From: Christiangramia lutea
Lineage (GTDB): Bacteria > Bacteroidota > Bacteroidia > Flavobacteriales > Flavobacteriaceae
DNA length: 64,000 nt
NCBI RefSeq assembly: GCF_022489035.1
Contig: NZ_JAKVTV010000001.1
Span: forward strand, 1,240,001 to 1,304,000
Direction of reading: 5' to 3'
Below the pieces are notes generated by a model, which was given only the letters and a program-made list of their open reading frames with translations, was not told where the DNA came from and did no database searches. Below are positions 4,961 to 14,383 of this stretch, one piece after another (within the stretch, counting starts at the first letter, position 1; each line of letters begins with the position of its first letter). The position numbers were made by a program, and so were the translations under genes.

Positions 4961-6063
4961 TTACTGTTCATATAAGGTTCCTCCCTCTACATACCAAGTT
5001 TCCCAAACCCCACCATTACCAGTTTTCCAGTCGGTTAAATCAAAAGTATTTTCACCATCAGCAGTACCCTTTACTGCATATACTTTTAAGGCTTTTCCCT
5101 CTTTATTCCATTCTAGAGGTGTGTTTTCCTCGCAAGCTTCTGGAGTATTATTTTCTACTTCTGGATTCGGCTGAATGAAATAAGCATTATCATCATGTTC
5201 TGGTGCTCCTCCATATATATTGGCAAGTCCATTTTCATCGATACAAACGGCTGTGTATTCATCGCAGGCAATTCCTTTTCCTACAACCTCCGTTTCTTCA
5301 TTTATACGCGCCAGAAAAGTAACGTGTCTTCCTTTCCTGTCAGGATTGTCATAATGCGTGTCTGTAATTACATCAGCCAATATATCATAATTACATCAGC
5401 CAATATATCATTTTCAATAAATTTTGAATTTCCTATGGTTACGTCTCTGTTATATGGGTTTTGCAAGGCCTCGTCAGATCTCACCGAGCCATTTTCAGCG
5501 GAATAATAAAAGCCTCCCATAATGGCCATTCCTGCACTTGTACCTCCAATAACGATATTTCTTTCTTTTATACCTTTATTTATAAGCTCTGCTACTTTGG
5601 TATCTCTCCAAAAAGAAACGTAATCCCATTGATCGCCACCGGCAAACCAGATGGCTTCAGCATTTTTTATTTTTTCATGTAAATCAGGGTCAGAACTTGC
5701 GTTTGCATTCTTACAAACGATGGTCTCTACAGAATTTAATTCTACGCCTAATCTGGAATACATATAATTATTATAGCCGTCGCTTCCAGAGGTTCTTAAT
5801 ACTAAAACATCTCCACCTTTAGCGCGTTCTAAGAACCATTTCATCGCTTCATCACTTTCTGTTGCTCCACCCATCAAGCAAATACCTCCAATAGGATCTG
5901 TTTCTTTATCGGTTTCACTTCCGGTTTTATATGAAGTATAATCTTTTGAAATGGGAGGTTCTGGTTTAATATCCGGATCGGTGGGAATTTCATCGTTTTC
6001 TCCGGAAGAACAGGAGATTAAGAAAGTACTCATCAGCAAAATCATTAATCTTAAACTATCCAT
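4961..6063 (-). pseudogene. Cyanophycinase-like (peptidase S51) lipoprotein, frameshifted by a 23-bp tandem duplication
   Basis: Two reading frames together make one family protein. The upstream part (5368-6063) starts at MDSLRLMILLMSTFLISC, a lipoprotein signal peptide with lipobox LISC. It then has the class-I amidotransferase-like fold of S51 peptidases, with WFAGGDQWDY and the nucleophile elbow GGTSAGMA, and stops early after FIENDILADV. The second frame (4961-5380) continues with ADVITDTHYDNPDRKGRH and CDEYTAVCID, the positions of the family DQHF...R and D-E-x-T-A motifs. Removing one copy of the 23-bp repeat at 5365-5410 joins them into about 360 residues. An N-terminal extension to 6177 is rejected because it overlaps yfcC and precedes the signal peptide. 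It is the last gene of the operon, 23 bp after yfcC. It may be a true mutation or a sequencing/assembly artefact. Confidence 0.85.
5365..5410. repeat. Perfect 23-bp tandem duplication inside the second cyanophycinase
   Basis: Bases 5365-5387 and 5388-5410 are identical, and the identity extends one base further (5388 = 5411). Because 23 is not a multiple of three, the duplication shifts the frame. A single copy would restore a continuous reading frame through ILADVITDTHYD. Confidence 0.97.
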
Positions 6064-6086
6064 CTTAAATTGTTTTATTTTTTTGA

Positions 6087-7475
6087 TTACCATGTGAATA
6101 ACAATAATGGGGGCAACATTAAGAGCATTGCCGAAATTACAAGCAGGATAAAAATGGGTAATGCCCATTTGAGCCATTTATCATATGGAATATTTGCAAT
6201 GGACAGTACTCCCATGGTTACCCCGCTCGTTGGAACGATCATATTGGTAAGTCCGTCTCCCATTTGAAAAGCCAGCACAGCAATTTCCCTGCTTATCCCA
6301 AGCACATCGCTTAAAGGAGCCATGATAGGCATGGTTAGCGCAGCCTGTCCGGAACCTGAAGGAATAAAGAAATTAAGGCAACACTGAAAAAGAAACATCA
6401 GCTCTGCGGAAATATATTTAGGGGTATCTCCAGCGACTTCGGCAACCGAATTCAAAATGGTGTCAATAATAAGTCCCTCTTCGGCAATGATCAACAAGCC
6501 TTTGGCTAATCCTATTACCAGAGCTGCTTTCATCATTCCCTGTGCTCCTTCTACAAATGCAGCAATAGCTTTGGTAGCAGACATCCTGTAAATAATAGCA
6601 GAAAGAAGTCCAAGACCAATAAAAAGTGCGGCAATCTCATTGATGTACCATCCGAATTCGTTCACACCATAGATCAACAGGATCAATGCAAATAAAAGAG
6701 CATAAAGTATGGTCTTTCTAGGCAAATTCAGTTCAGGCATATCAGCCTTATCAAGTTTTTCTGCAGCTTTAATATTTAAGCCAGACAAAATACTTTTGTT
6801 TGGGTCTTTCCCAATTCTTAAGGCATATCGATATAAGGCAATTCCGGCAATAGTGGTTAGAATGAACCAGACTACTAACCTGTATTCTATGCCTCCAAAT
6901 ACAGGTACCTGGGCTATACTTTGCGCAATACCAATAGTAAATGGGTTGGTAATTGCACCGGCAAAACCTACTCCAGTACCAATAACCGGTATCGCTGCCC
7001 CTATCATGGAGTCATACCCGAGTGCCTGGGCCAGCGGAATTGTGATCAAAACAAATACCAAAATCTCCTCGCTCATTCCAAAAGTAGCTCCTGCCAGGGA
7101 AAACAATGCCGTTAAAACGGGAACGATTAGGTGTTTATATTTCGGATTTTTTTCAGCGAACTTTATGATACTGAATAGCCCGGCATTAATAGCCCCGGTT
7201 GCATTTAGTACTGAAAAAGCTCCGCCAACCAGAAATACAAAACCAATTACAAATGCAGCGGAAATGAAGCCCTTAATGGGGGCGGTTAAAAATGCACCTA
7301 TTCCCTGAGGATTTTGTTCGACTCTTTCATAAGATCCAGGGATGATCATTTCGGTTCCATCAATCGATTCCCGATCGAACTGTCCTGCCGGAATTATCCA
7401 GGTTAGTGCAATGAATATCACCGAAATGCCCAGAATAATGGCAATAGTATCGGGAAATTTTCTTGGCAGCCTCAT
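6087..7475 (-). CDS. YfcC-family (C4-dicarboxylate/basic amino acid antiporter-like) membrane transporter
   Basis: A 462-residue polytopic protein with about 11-12 hydrophobic segments and no cleavable signal. It shows the hallmarks of the YfcC/DcuC-like ion-transporter group: the N-terminal PDTIAIILGISVIF helix, a Gly-rich re-entrant-like loop GTGVGFAGAITNPFTIGIAQ near residue 165, and the second-half counterpart FFIPSGSGQAALTMP near residue 370, followed by QMGDGLTNMIVPTSG. Members move dicarboxylates or basic amino acids across the inner membrane; the substrate is not readable here. It sits between the two cyanophycinase genes (21 and 23 bp gaps). The simplest role is uptake of beta-Asp dipeptides, Arg or Asp released in the periplasm, or exchange of Arg with ornithine. 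Confidence 0.85.
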   Translation of the reverse strand: MRLPRKFPDTIAIILGISVIFIALTWIIPAGQFDRESIDGTEMIIPGSYERVEQNPQGIGAFLTAPIKGFISAAFVIGFVFLVGGAFSVLNATGAINAGLFSIIKFAEKNPKYKHLIVPVLTALFSLAGATFGMSEEILVFVLITIPLAQALGYDSMIGAAIPVIGTGVGFAGAITNPFTIGIAQSIAQVPVFGGIEYRLVVWFILTTIAGIALYRYALRIGKDPNKSILSGLNIKAAEKLDKADMPELNLPRKTILYALLFALILLIYGVNEFGWYINEIAALFIGLGLLSAIIYRMSATKAIAAFVEGAQGMMKAALVIGLAKGLLIIAEEGLIIDTILNSVAEVAGDTPKYISAELMFLFQCCLNFFIPSGSGQAALTMPIMAPLSDVLGISREIAVLAFQMGDGLTNMIVPTSGVTMGVLSIANIPYDKWLKWALPIFILLVISAMLLMLPPLLLFTW

Positions 7476-7496
7476 TGATTATTTTCCTTTAAAAAA

Positions 7497-8390
7497 TTAT
7501 AGGGCAAACTTTTCTCCAGGTAAGATGACACTTAGCTGAAGATCTCTGCCTCCAATTAAGCCATCTTTTGAAATTTTGCTTTTATTGATGTTTTTAAGCA
7601 CAATAACTTGTGCGGCACCCAGCACTTTAGCGCTATCATTTTGAACCAGGATCGCGGTAGATTCATCAATACCAATACAAATTTCATCCGGATTCTCAAT
7701 GGCAGTGCTTATTAAACGGTTCATCCTCATACGCTGAATAAAATGCTGATCTATGATAGCATTATCAATTAAACCAAGTCCTTCTTTCAATTCGATATTT
7801 TCAGCCTCGATGGTTTTGAAATCTCCAGTATATTCAGGATGTTTGAATTCATCCCCCGTGATCATTTTTTTGCTCATAACCGCTGCTCCTGCACTAGTCC
7901 CGGCAATTGTGGCACCATTTTGATAAGCTCTTTTTATAGCATCGGAAATTGGAGAATTCAAGACGATATCCATAAAGCGATTCTGGTCTCCACCTGAAAT
8001 ATATATGAGGCCGGCATTTGCCAGTGAATCCAGTTGTTCCACATTCTGCCTGTTTTTTTGAAAATTAAATCCTTTGATCTTTTCAGATTCAATTCCCAGT
8101 TCGGTAAACTGCTTTGATGCATAAAATACAGCTGAATCTGGTTCCACGCTAGCCATGGGAAGTATTACCGCGTAAGTATCATTTTTAAGGTTACTTACTT
8201 CGATCAACTCCTGAACAAGTTCTGGCGGGCGCTTACCTCCACCTATTATAAATAACTTTCCTTTAGGTAGATTAGAAACTTTTGCCATTTGCTGTTCATC
8301 TTCGAGTATTTTTTCAGACTTATCTCCAGAATTACAGGAGATCCAGCACAAAGCCAACAAGAAAAGCCCCGTAATTTTAACTAATTTCAT
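7497..8390 (-). CDS. Lipoprotein cyanophycinase (peptidase S51)
   Basis: A 297-residue protein. Residues 1-18 are a lipoprotein signal peptide with Cys19 as the acylation site (CWISC). The rest has the peptidase S51 layout: KGKLFIIGGG at 43-52, YISGGDQNRF near 130, the nucleophile elbow AGTSAGAA with Ser166, then IDQHFIQRMRMNRL and GIDESTAILV. These match the DQHF-x-x-R-x-R-x-x-RL and D-E-x-T-A motifs characteristic of true cyanophycinases. Known members use the Ser to cut cyanophycin into beta-Asp-Arg dipeptides. Lipidation places this enzyme in the periplasm or on the cell surface. It lies 32 bp downstream of the isoaspartyl peptidase gene and 21 bp upstream of yfcC. Family assignment is firm; the actual polymer is inferred. 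Confidence 0.9.
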   Translation of the reverse strand: MKLVKITGLFLLALCWISCNSGDKSEKILEDEQQMAKVSNLPKGKLFIIGGGKRPPELVQELIEVSNLKNDTYAVILPMASVEPDSAVFYASKQFTELGIESEKIKGFNFQKNRQNVEQLDSLANAGLIYISGGDQNRFMDIVLNSPISDAIKRAYQNGATIAGTSAGAAVMSKKMITGDEFKHPEYTGDFKTIEAENIELKEGLGLIDNAIIDQHFIQRMRMNRLISTAIENPDEICIGIDESTAILVQNDSAKVLGAAQVIVLKNINKSKISKDGLIGGRDLQLSVILPGEKFAL

Positions 8391-8422
8391 ATTCTTAATT
8401 TTCAGGGGAAGGAAGAGGAAAA

Positions 8423-9370
8423 TTAAAGCTTTTCCTCTTCATCCCATACATATATTTTTCTTTCATTGGAGTTTACATATCCGCGGTACATCCCGGCAGA
8501 ATTATAGGTCATGTTTACATTTCCTTCAGAATCCACGGCAACGAGGCCGCCATCACCACCAAGATTACCATGATGCTCATGGATGGCTTTTTCCGCAGCA
8601 TCCTTTAGCGACATTCCGGCAAATTCCATGAGGTTGGAAACATAAGAGGCTACAGTAGCCCTCATAAAAAACTCTCCAATTCCCGTACACGAAACTGCGC
8701 AGGTCTTATTTTGCGCATAAGTACCGCTACCAATAATTGCAGAATCGCCTATTCTTCCTTCTATTTTATTGGTCATTCCTCCGGTAGAAGTAGCCGCAGC
8801 CAGGTTTCCTTCAGAATCCATGGCCACAGCGCCAACCGTTCCTTTCTTAAAATTAGAATGATCCAAAAAGGTTTCATCGGTATTCAGAGCTTTGGCCTGT
8901 TTCCACTGCTCTTCCCGGAAAGGAGTATCGAACCATGAATTCTCTACCAGATCGTGACCAAGTTCTGCTGCGAGCTCATCTGAATGTTTCCCGGAGATCA
9001 TCACGATATCATCTCTTTCCATTAATGATTTTGCGAAATTTACAGGGTTTTTTACCCGGCTGCAATTAGCCAAGGCCCCGGCCTTAAGATTAGAACCGTC
9101 CATGATAGAAGCTTCCAGTAGATGTTTTCCATTTCTGGAATATACCGCTCCTTTACCGGCGTTAAAATGCATGCTGTTCTCCAGAACAACCACGGCAGCA
9201 CAGACGGCATCTATCGCTGTCCCTCCTGCCTTTAGGACCTCTTCCCCAGCAGCAAGGCTGCCATCCAGATCTTTTAAGATAAGAGCTTTATCACTCGCTG
9301 ATAAATTCTCTTTTTCTATTACCCCAGCTCCTCCATGGATACAAAGGGAATATTTATATTTTTTAGCCAT
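8423..9370 (-). CDS. iaaA: Isoaspartyl peptidase / plant-type L-asparaginase (Ntn hydrolase)
   Basis: A 315-residue Ntn-hydrolase precursor. It begins directly with KYSLCIHGGAG and has no signal peptide, so it works in the cytoplasm. The autoprocessing site is KKGTVGAVAMD, with Thr178 becoming the N-terminal nucleophile of the beta subunit. The substrate-binding GRIGDSAIIGSGTYA and the CTGIGEFFMRA block follow, as in IaaA enzymes. The family hydrolyses beta-aspartyl dipeptides, including the beta-Asp-Arg that cyanophycinase releases, as well as Asn. It lies third in the operon, after a 143-bp gap containing a hairpin and 32 bp ahead of the lipoprotein cyanophycinase. This context points to the final intracellular step giving Asp plus Arg. 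Confidence 0.92.
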   Translation of the reverse strand: MAKKYKYSLCIHGGAGVIEKENLSASDKALILKDLDGSLAAGEEVLKAGGTAIDAVCAAVVVLENSMHFNAGKGAVYSRNGKHLLEASIMDGSNLKAGALANCSRVKNPVNFAKSLMERDDIVMISGKHSDELAAELGHDLVENSWFDTPFREEQWKQAKALNTDETFLDHSNFKKGTVGAVAMDSEGNLAAATSTGGMTNKIEGRIGDSAIIGSGTYAQNKTCAVSCTGIGEFFMRATVASYVSNLMEFAGMSLKDAAEKAIHEHHGNLGGDGGLVAVDSEGNVNMTYNSAGMYRGYVNSNERKIYVWDEEEKL

Positions 9371-9393
9371 TAATTTTATCTATTGATTGTCTG

Positions 9394-9417
9394 CCTGCAG
9401 CAAATTAGATCTGCAGG
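9394..9417 (-). promoter_or_regulatory. Hairpin in the susD-iaaA spacer
   Basis: The only sizeable spacer in the operon (9371-9513) contains a perfect 7-bp inverted repeat CCTGCAG/CTGCAGG (9394-9400 and 9411-9417). A smaller AGCC/GGCT hairpin lies near 9440. There is no U-tract, so it does not look like an ordinary terminator. An RNA-processing or stability element that sets susCD levels apart from the enzymes is possible. Confidence 0.4.
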
Positions 9418-9513
9418 ATCAAATTGTTAAAGTAGTTGTAGCCTCAGGCTGGAAGTATGGCATTAATTCAAACACTTACTCCCAGCTAAGACCACAAATC
9501 AAACACTTATTTT

Positions 9514-10854
9514 TTAATACCCAGGATTTTGAACCAGGGTTCCATTGGATATTACAATTTCCCTTTGAGGAACTGGATACACGGTTCGGAAAGTTTCAAT
9601 TCCTAAAATAGATTCAGCTCTGCCCAATCTTACAATATCGAACCAGCGATGACCTTCAAAAGCCATTTCTCTGGCCCTTTCTTCGATTAACACATCTGTA
9701 AACGACTCAAAGTCTGAAACTTCTTCCAGGGTGATAGCCATATCTGGGAGTGATCTCGTTCTAACCATATTCAGGTCTTCGAGGGCAAGTTCAAATTCTC
9801 CCATTCTTGCTCTTGCTTCAGCTCTATTCAAATAAACCTCTGAAAGCTTCATAATAATGGCATTCCCATCAACCGTAGCATCGTTAATCCCATATTTATC
9901 TACGAAAACCACTCGGCCATCGTCGAAATATAGATCTCCCCTGGGATCATCATCGTCGCTCATTGCGGCATAAAAATCTTCAAAACTTGCTGATACTTCC
10001 GGTGGTGAAACTGAAAGATATTCGGTCAAAGTATTCCCATCGGTTTCGGTAAATTGAAGTTCAAAAATTGCTTCGGCTGAACCCTCTGTTTCATAGATAT
10101 CATTGTAATTTCCGTTCAAAGCGTAATCATGGTTTTCAATGGCTAGGGTAGCATATTGTTCAGCTTCCTCATAATTCCCTGCATATAGATGAACCCTGCT
10201 TAAAAAGGCTTCCGCAGTACCTTTAGAAACAGTAAATTTCTCACTGTCATATTCCATCAGGGAAATGGCCATTTCCAGGTCTGAAATAATCTGATCATAA
10301 GAAGCAGCTACGGTAGATCTTGGAATTGTTTTCGCTGTTTCGCTGTCTATATATTGAGTAAAAACCGGAATTCCAAATTCCGAATTCATATCTCTAAACT
10401 GCCCGAATTGACGCAAAGCATCAAAAAGCCCAAGTGCTCTGAAAAAATGAGCTGCACCTTGAGATTCTGGATCGTCCAATTGCAATTCATCTACTTTTTC
10501 AAGGATTAGGTTACTTGAATTTACCAGGGCATAGGCATCTACCCAACTGCTTTCTACATAGATGCTGGATGCAGGGATTATGGCATTGTCAAGTTGGGTA
10601 AAGCGCTCCCGGAAACCTGTGGCATCTGCAATACCGCCTGTTAAAGCCTGCGCCATTATGAATTCACCTCCATAATAAGTTCCGCTTTGTGCAAGACTGT
10701 AAAGTCCGGTTACGGCAGATCTTAGTGAGATTCCATCTGTGATCGCTTCTGTAGAACGAATTTCGTCATCCAGCTCTACTTCCAAAATATCGCTACATCC
10801 GGCTAATGAACCAAGAAGTAGGGTTATGATTAAAAATTTATGTATGTTTTTCAT
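9514..10854 (-). CDS. SusD/RagB-family outer-membrane nutrient-binding lipoprotein
   Basis: A 446-residue protein with a lipoprotein signal peptide ending in LAGC. It has the N-terminal SusD segment (VTGLYSLAQSGTYYGGE), TPR-like helices (GTAEAFLSRVHLYAGNYEEAEQYA near residue 215), and the C-terminal RagB/SusD signature with LSEVYLNRAEARAR, LIEERAREMAFEGHRWFDIVRLG and a final VQNPGY. SusD proteins form the lid over the SusC barrel at the cell surface and bind the ligand. It starts 9 bp after the susC stop. At 446 residues it is shorter than many glycan-binding SusDs, in line with a peptide-type or small-oligomer ligand (inference). Confidence 0.93.
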   Translation of the reverse strand: MKNIHKFLIITLLLGSLAGCSDILEVELDDEIRSTEAITDGISLRSAVTGLYSLAQSGTYYGGEFIMAQALTGGIADATGFRERFTQLDNAIIPASSIYVESSWVDAYALVNSSNLILEKVDELQLDDPESQGAAHFFRALGLFDALRQFGQFRDMNSEFGIPVFTQYIDSETAKTIPRSTVAASYDQIISDLEMAISLMEYDSEKFTVSKGTAEAFLSRVHLYAGNYEEAEQYATLAIENHDYALNGNYNDIYETEGSAEAIFELQFTETDGNTLTEYLSVSPPEVSASFEDFYAAMSDDDDPRGDLYFDDGRVVFVDKYGINDATVDGNAIIMKLSEVYLNRAEARARMGEFELALEDLNMVRTRSLPDMAITLEEVSDFESFTDVLIEERAREMAFEGHRWFDIVRLGRAESILGIETFRTVYPVPQREIVISNGTLVQNPGY

Positions 10855-10863
10855 AATTGTTGT

Positions 10864-13863
10864 TTAAAATGAAGCATTTAATCCTATCGTGATTGTACGT
10901 GCCTGCCCGAGAGTTCCGAAGTCTTCACCCTGCAGAACATTAAGATCGGTTTGATTGGAAGTGTTCGTAGAAACCTCTGGATCGAATCCTAGGTAATCTG
11001 TGATCGTCACGAGATTTTGTCCCTGTACATATAGATTTAGGCCATTTAGACCGATTGAATCCACCAGGTCTGACGGAAGATCATAACCCAATCTAAGTGT
11101 TTTAAGTCTTATAAAATCTCCATCCTCCAGGAATTGAGTGCTGAATCTTTGTAACTGGCCAGCTTCTGTAGAAGGCCTCGGAACATCTGTTTGCTGTCCT
11201 GGCTCTCTCCAGTAATTGTCAAAAACTCTCTGACTTATATTCGCGTAAGGAATTCCGCTACGGGTAAATCCGAAGTTTTCGTAGGCATGCCTACTCTGGT
11301 TAAAGATCTTGTTTCCACCAGAAAACTGAATATTTGCTGTCAAGCTGAAACCTTTATACCTGAAATTATTCTGCCATCCACCAAAATAATCGGGAAGGGC
11401 GCTACCTGCAATCTGTCGGTCGTCGAAATCTATTACCCCGTCGTTGTTTATATCTTCGAACATGGCATCCCCTGTTTGTGGATCTACACCTTCATATTTT
11501 ATTAAATAAAGCGTGCTTACCGCCTCACCTTCTTTTAGAATGTGGTTTCTGCCTATAAGTTCACCATCATTCAGCAAGTTTATGATCTCATTATCCAGGA
11601 AGGAAAAATTCACCCCGGTGGTCCAGTTAAAACCTTCACCCTGGAAAATATCTGCATTCAGACTAAATTCGAATCCTGTATTTTCGATCTCGCCAATATT
11701 CTGAAAAACAGAACTGAAGCCCGTTAACCCCGAAACACCGGCACTAAGTAATAGATCTTCGGTTTGTTTATTGAAATAATCTGCGGTCATATTAATTCTC
11801 TGGTCAAATAATCCCAGGTCCAAACCAATATTGAGCTGCTTGGTTTTTTCCCAACCCAGATCAGGATTTTCAAGTCGGTTAGGGGCAATTCCCGGCCTGT
11901 TGTTATAATCAGCATTCAGGGAATATGTTCCCACCCAGTTGGAAGAAATTTCCTGATTTCCGGTAAGTCCGTAACTTCCTCTAAATTTGAGATTAGAGAT
12001 AGATTCAATATCGAAGAAGTCTTCTTCGTTAACTCTCCACGCTATAGATCCTGATGGGAAATAACCATACTGGTTGTCTTCACCAAAACGAGAAGATCCA
12101 TCTGCTCTTAGTGTAAATGCGAAAACATATCTGTTATCGAAGGAATAGTTTGCACGCCCAAAAAATGACTGTAGGCCAAACTGGTTTTTACCGGTAGTGC
12201 TATTAATGATCGTACTGGCTGCAGAAATACTGGTAGTATTATTCGTTGCAAATCCAACTCCCGCCTGATCTGAGAATTGAGCCTTGGTCTCCTGCAGGGT
12301 CCAACCCGCTAAAAGATCAAGATCATGTTTCTCTGCAAAAGTCTTGTTATAGTTAAGCGTATTCTCCAGCTGCCAGGTAGTTTCTTCGTAGGTGGCGAAA
12401 ATTGCTTCCCCGTCGTCTGATTTATTGGTTCCTGCCGGCACGAAAGATTCTTCCACGAAATTGGAATATTCAGTTGAAAAGGCAGATCTAAAGGTAAGGT
12501 CTGGAATGATCTTCCATTCAGCAAACGCTGAAGCCTGGAAACGAGTACTCTGAGAGTCATTGATATACTCTTCGGCGATCAACACCGGGTTTTCTAAAGG
12601 CCACCATGTATTATAACTGAATGGATTAGTAAATTCTCCATTTTCATCCCGAATAGGCGCTGTTGGATCCCAACCCTGAGCGTTGATGATTACTCCATAT
12701 TCATCGTTCTCATTGATGGTACGATCATGATTACTTCGGTTTAGAAAGATCGTTGTTCCTATTTTAACCTTGTCGTTGATAGTATGATCCAAATTTAAAC
12801 GAGTGCTCAATCGGTCAAATTCCTGACCTATCTGAATACCTTCCTGTTTAAAATAATTTCCACTTAAATAGAATCTTGTTTTTTCAGATCCTCCACGGGC
12901 GCTGATATCCAGGTTTTGAGTAATCCCCGTTCTGAATATTTCATCATAAATATTTGTGTTGACACCGTTGGAAGTATCAATAAAGTCGAAATAATCTTCT
13001 CCTAATCCATCAAATTCTGCGGCGGTATTAAAAAATTCTTTGAATTGATTTGGACCTACAAGGTCTGGTGTATTTGTAATTTCAGAAAAGCCCGTATAAT
13101 ATCCTACGTTTACAAGAGTTTTACCAGTTTTACCTCTTTTAGTAGTAATGAGAACTACCCCGTTGGCACCTCGCGAACCATAAATTGAGGCCGCGGCTGC
13201 ATCTTTTAAAATCGTAATAGATTTAATGTCATTCGGGTTGATATCTGCTAAAGGGTTTGTTGGCTGAATGTTGCTATTCAAAGCAGAGTTATTCCTAGAA
13301 ACCAGAGGAACTCCATCCACAATAAACAAAGGCTGGCTACTTGCCGAAATAGAAGATACACCCCTAATATTCACATTTATCGCTGCACCAGGCGTAGCCG
13401 ATGAAGTAGAGATATTTACCCCGGGAGTTTGACCCTGTAAGGCCGATTCAAAACTTGCAGCCGGTGTTTTTCCTAATTCTTCTGTTTCTATAGTCTGAAT
13501 ACTACTACTAATATCCTCACGTTCCTGAGTGCCGTATCCAACAATAACAACTTCATCCAGAGTTTGATCTGAAGAAAGGCTTACGTTATAAGAATTAGAA
13601 TCTGTTAATGGGATTATTTTAGACTGGTAACCAACAAAAGAAACTTCGATAGCCTGAGTTCCATCGGGCACTTCAATGGAGAAATTACCATCGAAATCGC
13701 CAACTACCCCAATATTCGAATCGGGCACCAGAACGTTGGCGCCTAATAATGGTTCTCCGGTGTCTTCAGCAGTAACTGTACCGGTAATTGTTCTTTGTGC
13801 GAATGCGTATGTACCGCACGTAAACATGATTAGATATACTAATAGTTGTTTAGAGAAATTCAT
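10864..13863 (-). CDS. SusC/RagA-family TonB-linked outer-membrane receptor
   Basis: A 999-residue receptor. It has a signal peptide (MNFSKQLLVYLIMFTCGTYAFAQ) and a carboxypeptidase-regulatory-like domain (about 24-100, TGTVTAEDTGEPLLGANV). The TonB box/SusC signature LDEVVIVGYGTQ follows near residue 103, then the plug (about 110-230, ending with AAAASIYGSRGANGVVLITTKRG). The 22-strand beta-barrel runs to a terminal Phe (TITIGLNASF). It is the first gene of the leftward operon. Its 520-bp upstream region holds paired structured elements and no adjacent ECF sigma/anti-sigma or hybrid two-component gene. With SusD it would import the oligomer or its fragments across the outer membrane. Confidence 0.95.
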   Translation of the reverse strand: MNFSKQLLVYLIMFTCGTYAFAQRTITGTVTAEDTGEPLLGANVLVPDSNIGVVGDFDGNFSIEVPDGTQAIEVSFVGYQSKIIPLTDSNSYNVSLSSDQTLDEVVIVGYGTQEREDISSSIQTIETEELGKTPAASFESALQGQTPGVNISTSSATPGAAINVNIRGVSSISASSQPLFIVDGVPLVSRNNSALNSNIQPTNPLADINPNDIKSITILKDAAAASIYGSRGANGVVLITTKRGKTGKTLVNVGYYTGFSEITNTPDLVGPNQFKEFFNTAAEFDGLGEDYFDFIDTSNGVNTNIYDEIFRTGITQNLDISARGGSEKTRFYLSGNYFKQEGIQIGQEFDRLSTRLNLDHTINDKVKIGTTIFLNRSNHDRTINENDEYGVIINAQGWDPTAPIRDENGEFTNPFSYNTWWPLENPVLIAEEYINDSQSTRFQASAFAEWKIIPDLTFRSAFSTEYSNFVEESFVPAGTNKSDDGEAIFATYEETTWQLENTLNYNKTFAEKHDLDLLAGWTLQETKAQFSDQAGVGFATNNTTSISAASTIINSTTGKNQFGLQSFFGRANYSFDNRYVFAFTLRADGSSRFGEDNQYGYFPSGSIAWRVNEEDFFDIESISNLKFRGSYGLTGNQEISSNWVGTYSLNADYNNRPGIAPNRLENPDLGWEKTKQLNIGLDLGLFDQRINMTADYFNKQTEDLLLSAGVSGLTGFSSVFQNIGEIENTGFEFSLNADIFQGEGFNWTTGVNFSFLDNEIINLLNDGELIGRNHILKEGEAVSTLYLIKYEGVDPQTGDAMFEDINNDGVIDFDDRQIAGSALPDYFGGWQNNFRYKGFSLTANIQFSGGNKIFNQSRHAYENFGFTRSGIPYANISQRVFDNYWREPGQQTDVPRPSTEAGQLQRFSTQFLEDGDFIRLKTLRLGYDLPSDLVDSIGLNGLNLYVQGQNLVTITDYLGFDPEVSTNTSNQTDLNVLQGEDFGTLGQARTITIGLNASF

Positions 13864-13910
13864 TTTAATAATTATTGATTAATACTCGAAATAGTCAATA
13901 TTTCCAGGTA

Positions 13911-13937
13911 TTTCCCTGGGGTAAACCCATTGGGAAA
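13911..13937. promoter_or_regulatory. Compound inverted repeat just upstream of susC
   Basis: Outer arms TTTCCC (13911-13916) and GGGAAA (13932-13937) enclose a second inverted repeat, GGGT-AA-ACCC. No U-tract follows on either strand. It could be an operator or an RNA hairpin in the susC 5' UTR, close to the start codon at 13863. Confidence 0.45.
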
Positions 13938-13967
13938 CTGCTGAAAAAGGATTATTAAAAAATGTTC

Positions 13968-14030
13968 TCTAGCAATCGAAGATAGGCTGAAGTCCTTGTA
14001 AGGTAAGGGACTTACAACAGATGATTAAAT
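13968..14030 (-). ncRNA. Putative structured leader element, copy A (susC-proximal)
   Basis: The first 49 bp (plus-strand order) match copy B at 38 positions with no gap. An internal stem pairs AAGTCC with GGACTT. In copy B the same stem has a compensating T-A to C-G change at one pair. A second, mutually exclusive pairing TTGTAAG/CTTACAA is possible, as in a switch. The outer stem is weaker than in copy B. I do not recognise a known riboswitch class. The strand is assumed from the susC gene. Confidence 0.45.
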
Positions 14031-14141
14031 TTTTTAACTGAATTAAATACATAATTAAGCAATTAAAGAATAGAATGATTATTGAAAATTCCGCGAAAAG
14101 ATCATTCACGGTAAAAAGATTCGGAATATAAAAATGGGAAG

Positions 14142-14217
14142 TCTAGCAATCAAATATCGGCTGAAGCCCCATCAAGGTTAGAGGCTTACAGTAAGTGTGC
14201 GATATTTTTGAATTGCT
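14142..14217 (-). ncRNA. Putative structured leader element, copy B (susC-distal)
   Basis: It begins, on the plus strand, with the same ten bases as copy A (TCTAGCAATC). It folds into a long outer stem of about 15 bp (AGCAAT..CAA..TATCG with CGATATTTGATTGCT, two small bulges) and an inner stem AAGCC/GGCTT extended by CTG/CAG. Spacing to copy A is about 110 bp. Tandem arrangement upstream of a transport/catabolic operon is the usual setting of a ligand-sensing RNA, but no known class was recognised. Confidence 0.45.
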
Positions 14218-14383
14218 AATCACGAATTGAATTTTGTTAAAAGTATTAAAAATTCTGAAAAAATGAAATTTTTAATGAGAAATAAGATTTTTCATAATGG
14301 AACTAATCCGTTTTCTATAGAGATGATTTCTAGTAATTCGACCAAATAAGTGGGTTTAGGCGCATGTAGGATATTTGAGAATA

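Follow-up and report, generated by a model that had tools for sequence, protein, structure and literature searches.

The 64,000-nucleotide (nt) stretch of Christiangramia lutea DNA analysed here (the window; contig NZ_JAKVTV010000001.1, positions 1,240,001 to 1,304,000) is part of one contig of a 3.47-Mb genome and carries, at 6087-13863, an intact operon of five genes, all on the minus strand, whose predicted products are best read as a system for using cyanophycin from outside the cell. Cyanophycin, rich in nitrogen, serves cyanobacteria and other bacteria as a storage polymer. An earlier sequence-only reading had described a leftward operon of SusC, SusD, an isoaspartyl peptidase with its Thr nucleophile, a lipoprotein cyanophycinase and a YfcC-family transporter, and profile matches confirm this gene set:

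10864-13863, minus strand: SusC-type TonB-dependent outer-membrane transporter, 999 amino acids (aa) (TIGR04056, 911 bits against a cut-off of 368)
9514-10854, minus strand: SusD-type lipoprotein, 446 aa (PF07980 and PF14322; solved SusD homologues)
8423-9370, minus strand: IaaA-like isoaspartyl peptidase/beta-aspartyl-peptidase, Asparaginase_2 family (PF01112, 333 bits; solved relatives)
7497-8390, minus strand: Cph1, putative exported lipoprotein-type S51 cyanophycinase (TIGR02069, 165.3 bits; pocket residues; Foldseek)
6087-7475, minus strand: YfcC/DcuC-family inner-membrane transporter, proposed importer of beta-aspartyl-arginine (beta-Asp-Arg) (PF03606, 348 bits; co-occurrence)

The spacing was likewise as first described, with gaps of 9-32 base pairs (bp) and one 143-bp spacer (9, 143, 32, 21 and 23 bp from susC towards Cph2, a broken S51 gene discussed below). 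The SusC score and the adjoining SusD-family lipoprotein identify a SusC/SusD pair, one whose SusC has the SusC homologue 8aa4 and RagA (6sli) as nearest solved relatives; the genome holds 12 SusC genes over the cut-off. A structure model of SusD, considered as a guide to ligand class, was too poor to be used (predicted local distance difference test, pLDDT, 56.2). Thr178, the nucleophile of IaaA, aligns with residue 1 of solved beta subunits. Cph1 carries an export signal and none was seen in IaaA; export was judged throughout by eye and with a hydrophobicity window rather than with a signal-peptide program, and the start codons of several M20 and some IaaA genes are uncertain. No carbohydrate-active enzyme family was detected among the operon proteins with Pfam and NCBIfam, which sets the operon apart from polysaccharide utilization loci. 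Its combination of cyanophycinase, isoaspartyl dipeptidase and transporter without cphA1 is that of a cyanophycin utilization locus, as the term is cited in passages of PMC10206079.

Cph1 resembles cyanophycinases by family score, active-site residues and predicted fold. Its TIGR02069 score exceeds the cut-off of 126.6 bits, its score against the PepE model (43.8 bits) falls below that model's cut-off of 156, the solved proteins closest to it are cyanophycinases, and the GGDQ, GTSAGA and DQHF..R.R..R motifs are all present in it. Residues were aligned on the numbering of Synechocystis CphB, with Q101, S132, D172, Q173, H174, R178, R180, R183 and E201 as what we take to be the catalytic (S132, H174, E201) and pocket (the remaining six) positions, a list said to go back to Law et al. 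2009. All nine are kept in 53/53 Cph1 rows (the window and 52 others); CphB-type enzymes adjoining a cyanophycin synthetase keep eight, with S or T at position 173 in 18/18; the PepE of the genome itself has five of the nine and departs from the list at the other four. A model of Cph1 of moderate quality (pLDDT 67.8) led Foldseek to rank solved cyanophycinases first (E 1e-18 to 1e-14) and dipeptidase E later. Clustering with PepE had been named as an outcome that would count against a cyanophycinase; scores, pocket residues and fold search favour cyanophycinases, and on these we rejected a PepE-type Cph1; our quick tree (96 S51 rows, the truncated L164 left out) says little on PepE, given its single PepE outgroup row and its long-branch warnings. 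In that tree the Cph1 rows form their own group (Shimodaira-Hasegawa-like approximate likelihood ratio test, SH-aLRT, 84), the CphB rows group with both solved enzymes and one further row (SH-aLRT 99), and the Cph2 rows form a third group (SH-aLRT 98). Cph1 is thus cyanophycinase-like by scores, residues and modelled fold, and is not nested among the solved enzymes. Synechocystis CphB (3en0, 7uqw) and Pseudobacteroides pseudo-CphB (7uqv) share with it the S51 fold and the catalytic and pocket residues but are 26-30% identical, stand in a separate tree clade and, unlike Cph1, are not known to be exported lipoproteins. A further S51 clade of 11 rows (L053-L057, L059-L063 and L066) has Asp in place of pocket Arg183, and its members are probably not cyanophycinases.

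Counting the window's own genome in both cases, Cph1-type genes of at least 57% identity occur in 5 of 24 congeneric genomes, and 46 of 395 Bacteroidota genomes have a full-length Cph1-type match scoring 126 bits or more. The 53 Cph1 loci compared below exclude the window and consist of 43 of the 45 other genomes' matches together with L006, L007, L008, L048-L050 and L174-L177; L156 and L167, both near a TonB receptor and YfcC, were dropped because an overlapping open reading frame (ORF) masked Cph1 in the ORF filter, and L004 and L005 because they share contigs with L174 and L176. Co-occurrence of SusC/SusD, S51 and IaaA genes across Bacteroidota, suggested earlier as a check, was borne out: the five-gene order recurs at nine other distinct loci (L006, L007, L049, L050, L130, L131 and L174-L176), on a contig that ends soon after YfcC in the case of L006. 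These nine and the window make up kind 1a, SusC-SusD-IaaA-Cph1-YfcC with none to two copies of Cph2, and L048 has IaaA, Cph1 and YfcC only, without SusCD. Kind 1b combines SusCD with an exported IaaA (L140, L143, L145 and L146, together with L144, which has no SusC within 9 kb), and L047 pairs SusCD with a secreted M20 peptidase. In one genus (g128) a penicillin-amidase-family protein, so called from a Pfam run on L135 and by similarity at the other four loci, lies 2-3 bp from Cph1 with SusCD nearby (L134-L137 and L139). A further kind, in which no SusD was detected, has a receptor of about 820 aa and an RpiR regulator, with a cytoplasmic-looking M20 peptidase adjoining Cph1, and some Cph1 loci match none of these kinds.

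The neighbourhoods of Cph1 and of storage-associated CphB differ sharply. A TonB-dependent receptor (SusC profile) lies within 9 kb of 44 of the 53 Cph1 loci, on the same strand at 42, with a full-length SusC (at least 950 aa) at 24/53 and SusD at 24/53, and CphA1 was found within 9 kb of Cph1 at none of the 53. The corresponding counts for a TonB receptor are 0/18 for CphB genes beside CphA1 and 3/21 for other S51 genes, none of the three being on the same strand. By a crude measure of the N-terminus, its most hydrophobic 10 residues, Cph1 rows score at least 1.9, except L160 (0.8); for the 18 CphB rows with CphA1 alongside, the range is 0.8-2.0. Cyanophycin synthesis does occur in the genus: at least 4 of 24 congeneric genomes carry a cyanophycin synthetase themselves, and CphA1-CphB-IaaA clusters are present in congeneric genomes (L178-L181). 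These clusters lend some support to the view that the operon is the leftover of a storage pathway of the cell's own, in which the cyanophycinase once recycled internal polymer. However, they use a different CphB clade with less hydrophobic N-termini and belong to the set lacking a nearby SusC, Cph1 has its export signal, and one genome (G157) contains both kinds of locus (L047 and L084). We rejected the storage-leftover explanation, now highly improbable, on the contrast of 44/53 with 0/18 and on the result that no cyanophycin synthetase scores above the cut-off in the window's genome (best 123 bits against 850). The core of the sequence-only reading, a SusCD-type locus for external cyanophycin, stands, with its derivation of the polymer from cyanobacteria not established and its second cyanophycinase frameshifted; within the genus, some members may produce cyanophycin on which others feed.

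An alternative is that the operon scavenges beta-aspartyl (isoaspartyl) peptides of damaged proteins in general, with cyanophycin as at most one substrate. SusC/SusD architecture is common to RagAB and other SusCD importers, for which a peptide cargo is conceivable, and passages of PMC9723704 describe RagA, the near solved relative of SusC, as part of an oligopeptide importer; the IaaA and IadA enzymes of cyanophycin clusters are promiscuous according to passages of PMC10206079. Against this, Cph1 keeps the whole of the pocket for the beta-linked Asp-Arg unit and passes the cyanophycinase cut-off, and two other Asparaginase_2 genes lie elsewhere in the genome. We consider general scavenging unlikely. 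Under the cyanophycin reading the substrate, unlike that of RagAB, would be a beta-linked isopeptide polymer.

The path that we propose would begin with capture of cyanophycin or short fragments of it by SusD and SusC at the cell surface. Outside the inner membrane, on the surface or in the periplasm, lipoprotein Cph1 would trim the polymer to beta-Asp-Arg; the dipeptide would reach the cytoplasm through the YfcC-type transporter, and cytoplasmic IaaA would split it into aspartate and arginine. The role given to YfcC, import of intact beta-Asp-Arg that would be needed only when the dipeptidase is inside the cell, is suggested by its absence where the dipeptidase is exported. YfcC stands beside Cph1 in 10/10 counted relatives with a signal-less IaaA, as it does in the window, whereas it is missing at all six loci with an exported dipeptidase (five with an adjacent exported IaaA and one with an exported M20), two of which (L140 and L144) have a DctA-type dicarboxylate transporter in its stead. 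Left outside this count were L132 (which has YfcC and an IaaA-like gene on the other strand), L157 (exported IaaA 2.7 kb away, no YfcC) and L147. At 18 loci without a nearby IaaA, a cytoplasmic-looking M20/PepT-like peptidase of 362-431 aa lies 0-106 bp from Cph1 (for example L148:8493-9584, L161, L162, L166, L169 and L170), and it is a candidate for the beta-Asp-Arg dipeptidase of Bacteroidota.

Upstream of susC lie two short upstream ORFs (uORFs) in tandem, which formed no part of the sequence-only reading, together with candidate signals for transcription:

14238-14245, minus strand: TACTTTTA, candidate -7 element of a Bacteroidota promoter
14143-14223, minus strand: uORF1, GTG start, 26 aa, VISNSKISHTYCKPLTLMGLQPIFDC-stop
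14091-14111, minus strand: terminator-like hairpin, 31 nt past the uORF1 stop
13969-14052, minus strand: uORF2, ATG start, 27 aa, MYLIQLKNLIICCKSLTLQGLQPIFDC-stop
13901-13947, minus strand: hairpin immediately ahead of susC, 21 nt past the uORF2 stop (-20.5 kcal/mol; 12 shuffles average -8.9)

Both uORFs end in CK(S/P)LTLxGLQPIFDC-stop, and with three mismatches allowed the two copies are the only matches to the repeat in the genome, a reversed control pattern giving one match. Both copies are present at 10/10 kind-1a loci with SusC, window included; L048 has a single copy, upstream of IaaA, and L131 has an extra pair upstream of a cyanophycinase-like gene of 682 aa with a type IX secretion system tail (L131:16487-18535, minus strand). 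The 23 copies, 22 of them distinct, all contain GLQPIF (23/23), and most keep two cysteines. With one mismatch allowed, 5 of 397 Flavobacteriaceae genomes and 3 of 395 Bacteroidota genomes contain the nucleotide pattern of the tail; the sets overlap, with G000 and G344 in common, and the counts ignore relatedness, but the pattern is strikingly specific, being confined to kind-1a loci and L048. The reversed pattern matched once in the first set and was not seen in the second. A search of the other Cph1 classes for tandem leader repeats within a locus returned none beyond the GLQPIF family, three pairs being X runs in L148.

By their pattern of variation the uORFs are under coding selection. Third codon positions vary in 16/16 codons, first positions in 10 and second positions in five, and pairwise codon differences are predominantly synonymous in frame (1605 synonymous to 594 nonsynonymous) and not in the other two frames (251 to 1903 and 163 to 1951). 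In copy 1 a GTG or TTG stands precisely 26 codons ahead of the stop in 11/11 cases, whereas the 181 other open positions lying over 15 codons from the stop hold a single start codon. In copy 2 the distance from ATG to the stop is 27 codons in 9/11 cases and 30 in the remaining two, and the 284 other positions of this sort hold 10 starts, including these two. These results argue against the idea that the repeat is a DNA operator or an RNA aptamer whose coding appearance is accidental, for which the point in favour is a small stem that, judged by eye, can be drawn for the two window copies, with a change from T-A to C-G; third-position variation, the in-frame synonymous excess and start codons at a fixed distance leave it a very slim chance.

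A hairpin is predicted after 21/21 uORF stops examined, with a U-rich tail after only some of them. The element TACTTTTA would be a promoter element on what we take to be the Bacteroidota -7 consensus, TAnnTTTG, and a similar TA-rich element can be made out by eye ahead of uORF1 in the relatives inspected; a sigma-70 promoter scan was uninformative (20 sites against 26.7 expected). One further RNA feature lies inside the operon:

9371-9513, minus strand: SusD-IaaA spacer, 143 nt, with a strong RNA stem-loop (window z -4.77)

The stem-loop was predicted in 7/7 kind-1a SusD-IaaA spacers folded (of 10 loci; z -2.36 to -5.89) and may set the ratio of SusCD to the enzymes. A conserved sequence motif in this spacer was sought and rejected, the stem-loop alone being shared, with little sequence conservation between genera. 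No Rfam element reached the gathering threshold in the window, and no transfer RNA was found there.

We infer that the uORFs encode leader peptides through which the operon is controlled, perhaps by arrest of the ribosome. Like arrest leaders, they are short coding ORFs that precede the operon and are conserved toward their stop codons, and the combination of conservation reaching the stop, a weakly conserved N-terminal half, near-fixed length and a hairpin after each stop recalls TnaC-like regulators. TnaC arrests the ribosome at its own stop codon and heads a catabolic operon, and TnaC and SpeFL are short leader ORFs that act at the stop through termination arrest by a small metabolite (passages of PMC8429421); the uORFs resemble them in this, but come in two tandem copies, and no sequence relation was noticed, none having been specifically searched for. 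Both uORFs would be translated at the start of the susC transcript, and a ribosome pausing at their C-termini on a pathway metabolite would control read-through into susC. Arrest by such a metabolite is our preferred reading; classical attenuation by arginine starvation finds no support, as the uORFs lack conserved arginine codons. In its specific form, a new class of metabolite-sensing arrest peptides with the motif CK(S/P)LTLxGLQPIF(D/N)C-stop that stall on beta-Asp-Arg, arginine or another cyanophycin product and gate transcription of the SusCD operon in two steps, this proposal is tentative. Somewhat less probable is that the uORFs encode small functional proteins, such as membrane or signalling peptides, and are not regulators of the operon. 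Coding selection, nearly fixed length and the retained cysteines are all compatible with small proteins. Poor conservation of the N-terminal halves between genera, with conservation running up to the stop, is less so, as are the predicted hairpins (not always beyond chance) and the location of the copies, all of which precede this type of operon or, for the extra pair of L131, a cyanophycinase-like gene.

Downstream of the transporter, what had been claimed as a second lipoprotein cyanophycinase proved to be two ORFs in different frames and not one open gene:

5368-6063, minus strand: N-terminal piece of Cph2, a broken S51 lipoprotein gene, with GGDQ and GTSAG (ATG at 6063 chosen by eye)
4961-5380, minus strand: C-terminal piece of Cph2 in the other frame, with DTHYDNPDRKGR (DTH..R..R motif)
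5365-5411, no strand: exact tandem duplication (23 bp x 2) responsible for the frameshift in Cph2

The Ser and His motifs thus fall in two different frames. Read by eye, the pieces have T at position 173 and P at position 178 in CphB numbering, and the N-terminal piece scores 46 bits, short of the 126.6-bit TIGR02069 cut-off, as do four intact Cph2-type relatives (55.6-69 bits). Homologues in Galbibacter and other genomes are single whole ORFs, so the broken gene of the window would reflect a local loss, slippage that can revert or a misassembly, and the 23-bp duplication may be a slippage on/off site. Cph2 is not present at the corresponding place in same-genus L174, L175 and L176, and the path thus seems not to need it.

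Much of this has precedents. One involves Citromicrobium, an alphaproteobacterium. Passages of Tang et al. 2012 (PMC3400609) describe there a TonB receptor beside a cyanophycinase, as here, and name cyanophycin as a putative TonB-receptor substrate; they mention no SusD. Sharon and Schmeing 2023 (PMC10206079) found cyanophycinase and dipeptidase genes clustered in 45 of 52 genomes with both genes and no cphA1; from the passages concerned, these cyanophycinase-IaaA/IadA clusters contain the same enzyme pair as here, often with amino acid transporters, whereas 'TonB' has no occurrence in the main text, a text not searched for uORFs. The same paper cites a 'cyanophycin utilization locus' of a Bacteroidetes strain that scavenges cyanobacteria (Ben Hania 2017), which as cited matches ours in having a cyanophycinase, an isoaspartyl dipeptidase and a transporter, in its external substrate and in its phylum, but is cited with iadA and a transporter where the window has SusCD, iaaA, YfcC and tandem uORFs. 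A Balneolaeota paper also discusses cyanophycinases of cyanobacteria-associated bacteria (passages of PMC6243061). With cyanophycin utilization loci already in print, we class the SusCD operon as a variant of a kind already known. The earlier remark that no SusCD cyanophycin locus had been described held among the literature matches listed (supplements and most subscription papers lay outside this scope), although cyanophycin as a TonB-receptor substrate and utilization loci as such are in print. Outer-membrane import of cyanophycin has been proposed, with no demonstration in the literature examined. Neither these tandem leader peptides nor a peptide-based switch on a SusCD operon is described among the matches listed, which for the switch were 15 of 2,782, and the leader pair is a new element of the operon.

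Taken together, the best explanation of the locus, and in our judgement a probable one, is that it lets the cell live partly on the cyanophycin of others, with the tandem leaders controlling the operon. Several points weigh against this. The cyanophycin reading draws on sequence and predicted structure, and the Cph1 clade stands beside, not inside, that of the two solved enzymes. IaaA scores 291.6 bits against the NCBI equivalog PRK10226 (cut-off 567), which makes it a relative and not that equivalog, and the transporter scores 383.7 bits against the YfcC equivalog NF008611 (cut-off 500), placing it at the level of the DcuC family. Nine of the 53 Cph1 loci, some at contig ends, lack a TonB receptor within 9 kb. 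Beta-Asp-Arg should be small enough for porin passage, which leaves the need for SusCD unexplained if all trimming takes place outside. Loci with a cytoplasmic-looking M20 have YfcC in 12/18 cases and lack it in 6/18, L147 has a signal-less IaaA 6.5 kb away and no YfcC, and the link between YfcC and the dipeptidase (Fisher p 0.0006, ignoring relatedness) amounts to one evolutionary contrast on the tree, too few for a phylogeny-aware test to reach significance, and is a lead and not statistical proof. As to the leaders, the hairpins lie below the 12-shuffle mean in all 21 cases but within one standard deviation of it in five, and the uORF stop codons vary between species (TAG, TAA and TGA), which makes arrest tied to one release factor unlikely.

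The comparison splits two pathways by their anatomy, CphA1-CphB-IaaA for a cell's own storage and TonB receptor-Cph1-dipeptidase for scavenging. It also yields a substrate prediction, beta-Asp-Arg, for a transporter family, YfcC, whose name at NCBI goes no further than 'putative basic amino acid antiporter', and, in the cytoplasmic M20 peptidase, a candidate for the dipeptidase that passages of PMC10206079 call undiscovered, there in Bacteroidota genomes with cphA1. If the interpretation of the uORFs is true, the pair of leaders would give a SusCD operon a peptide-based switch.

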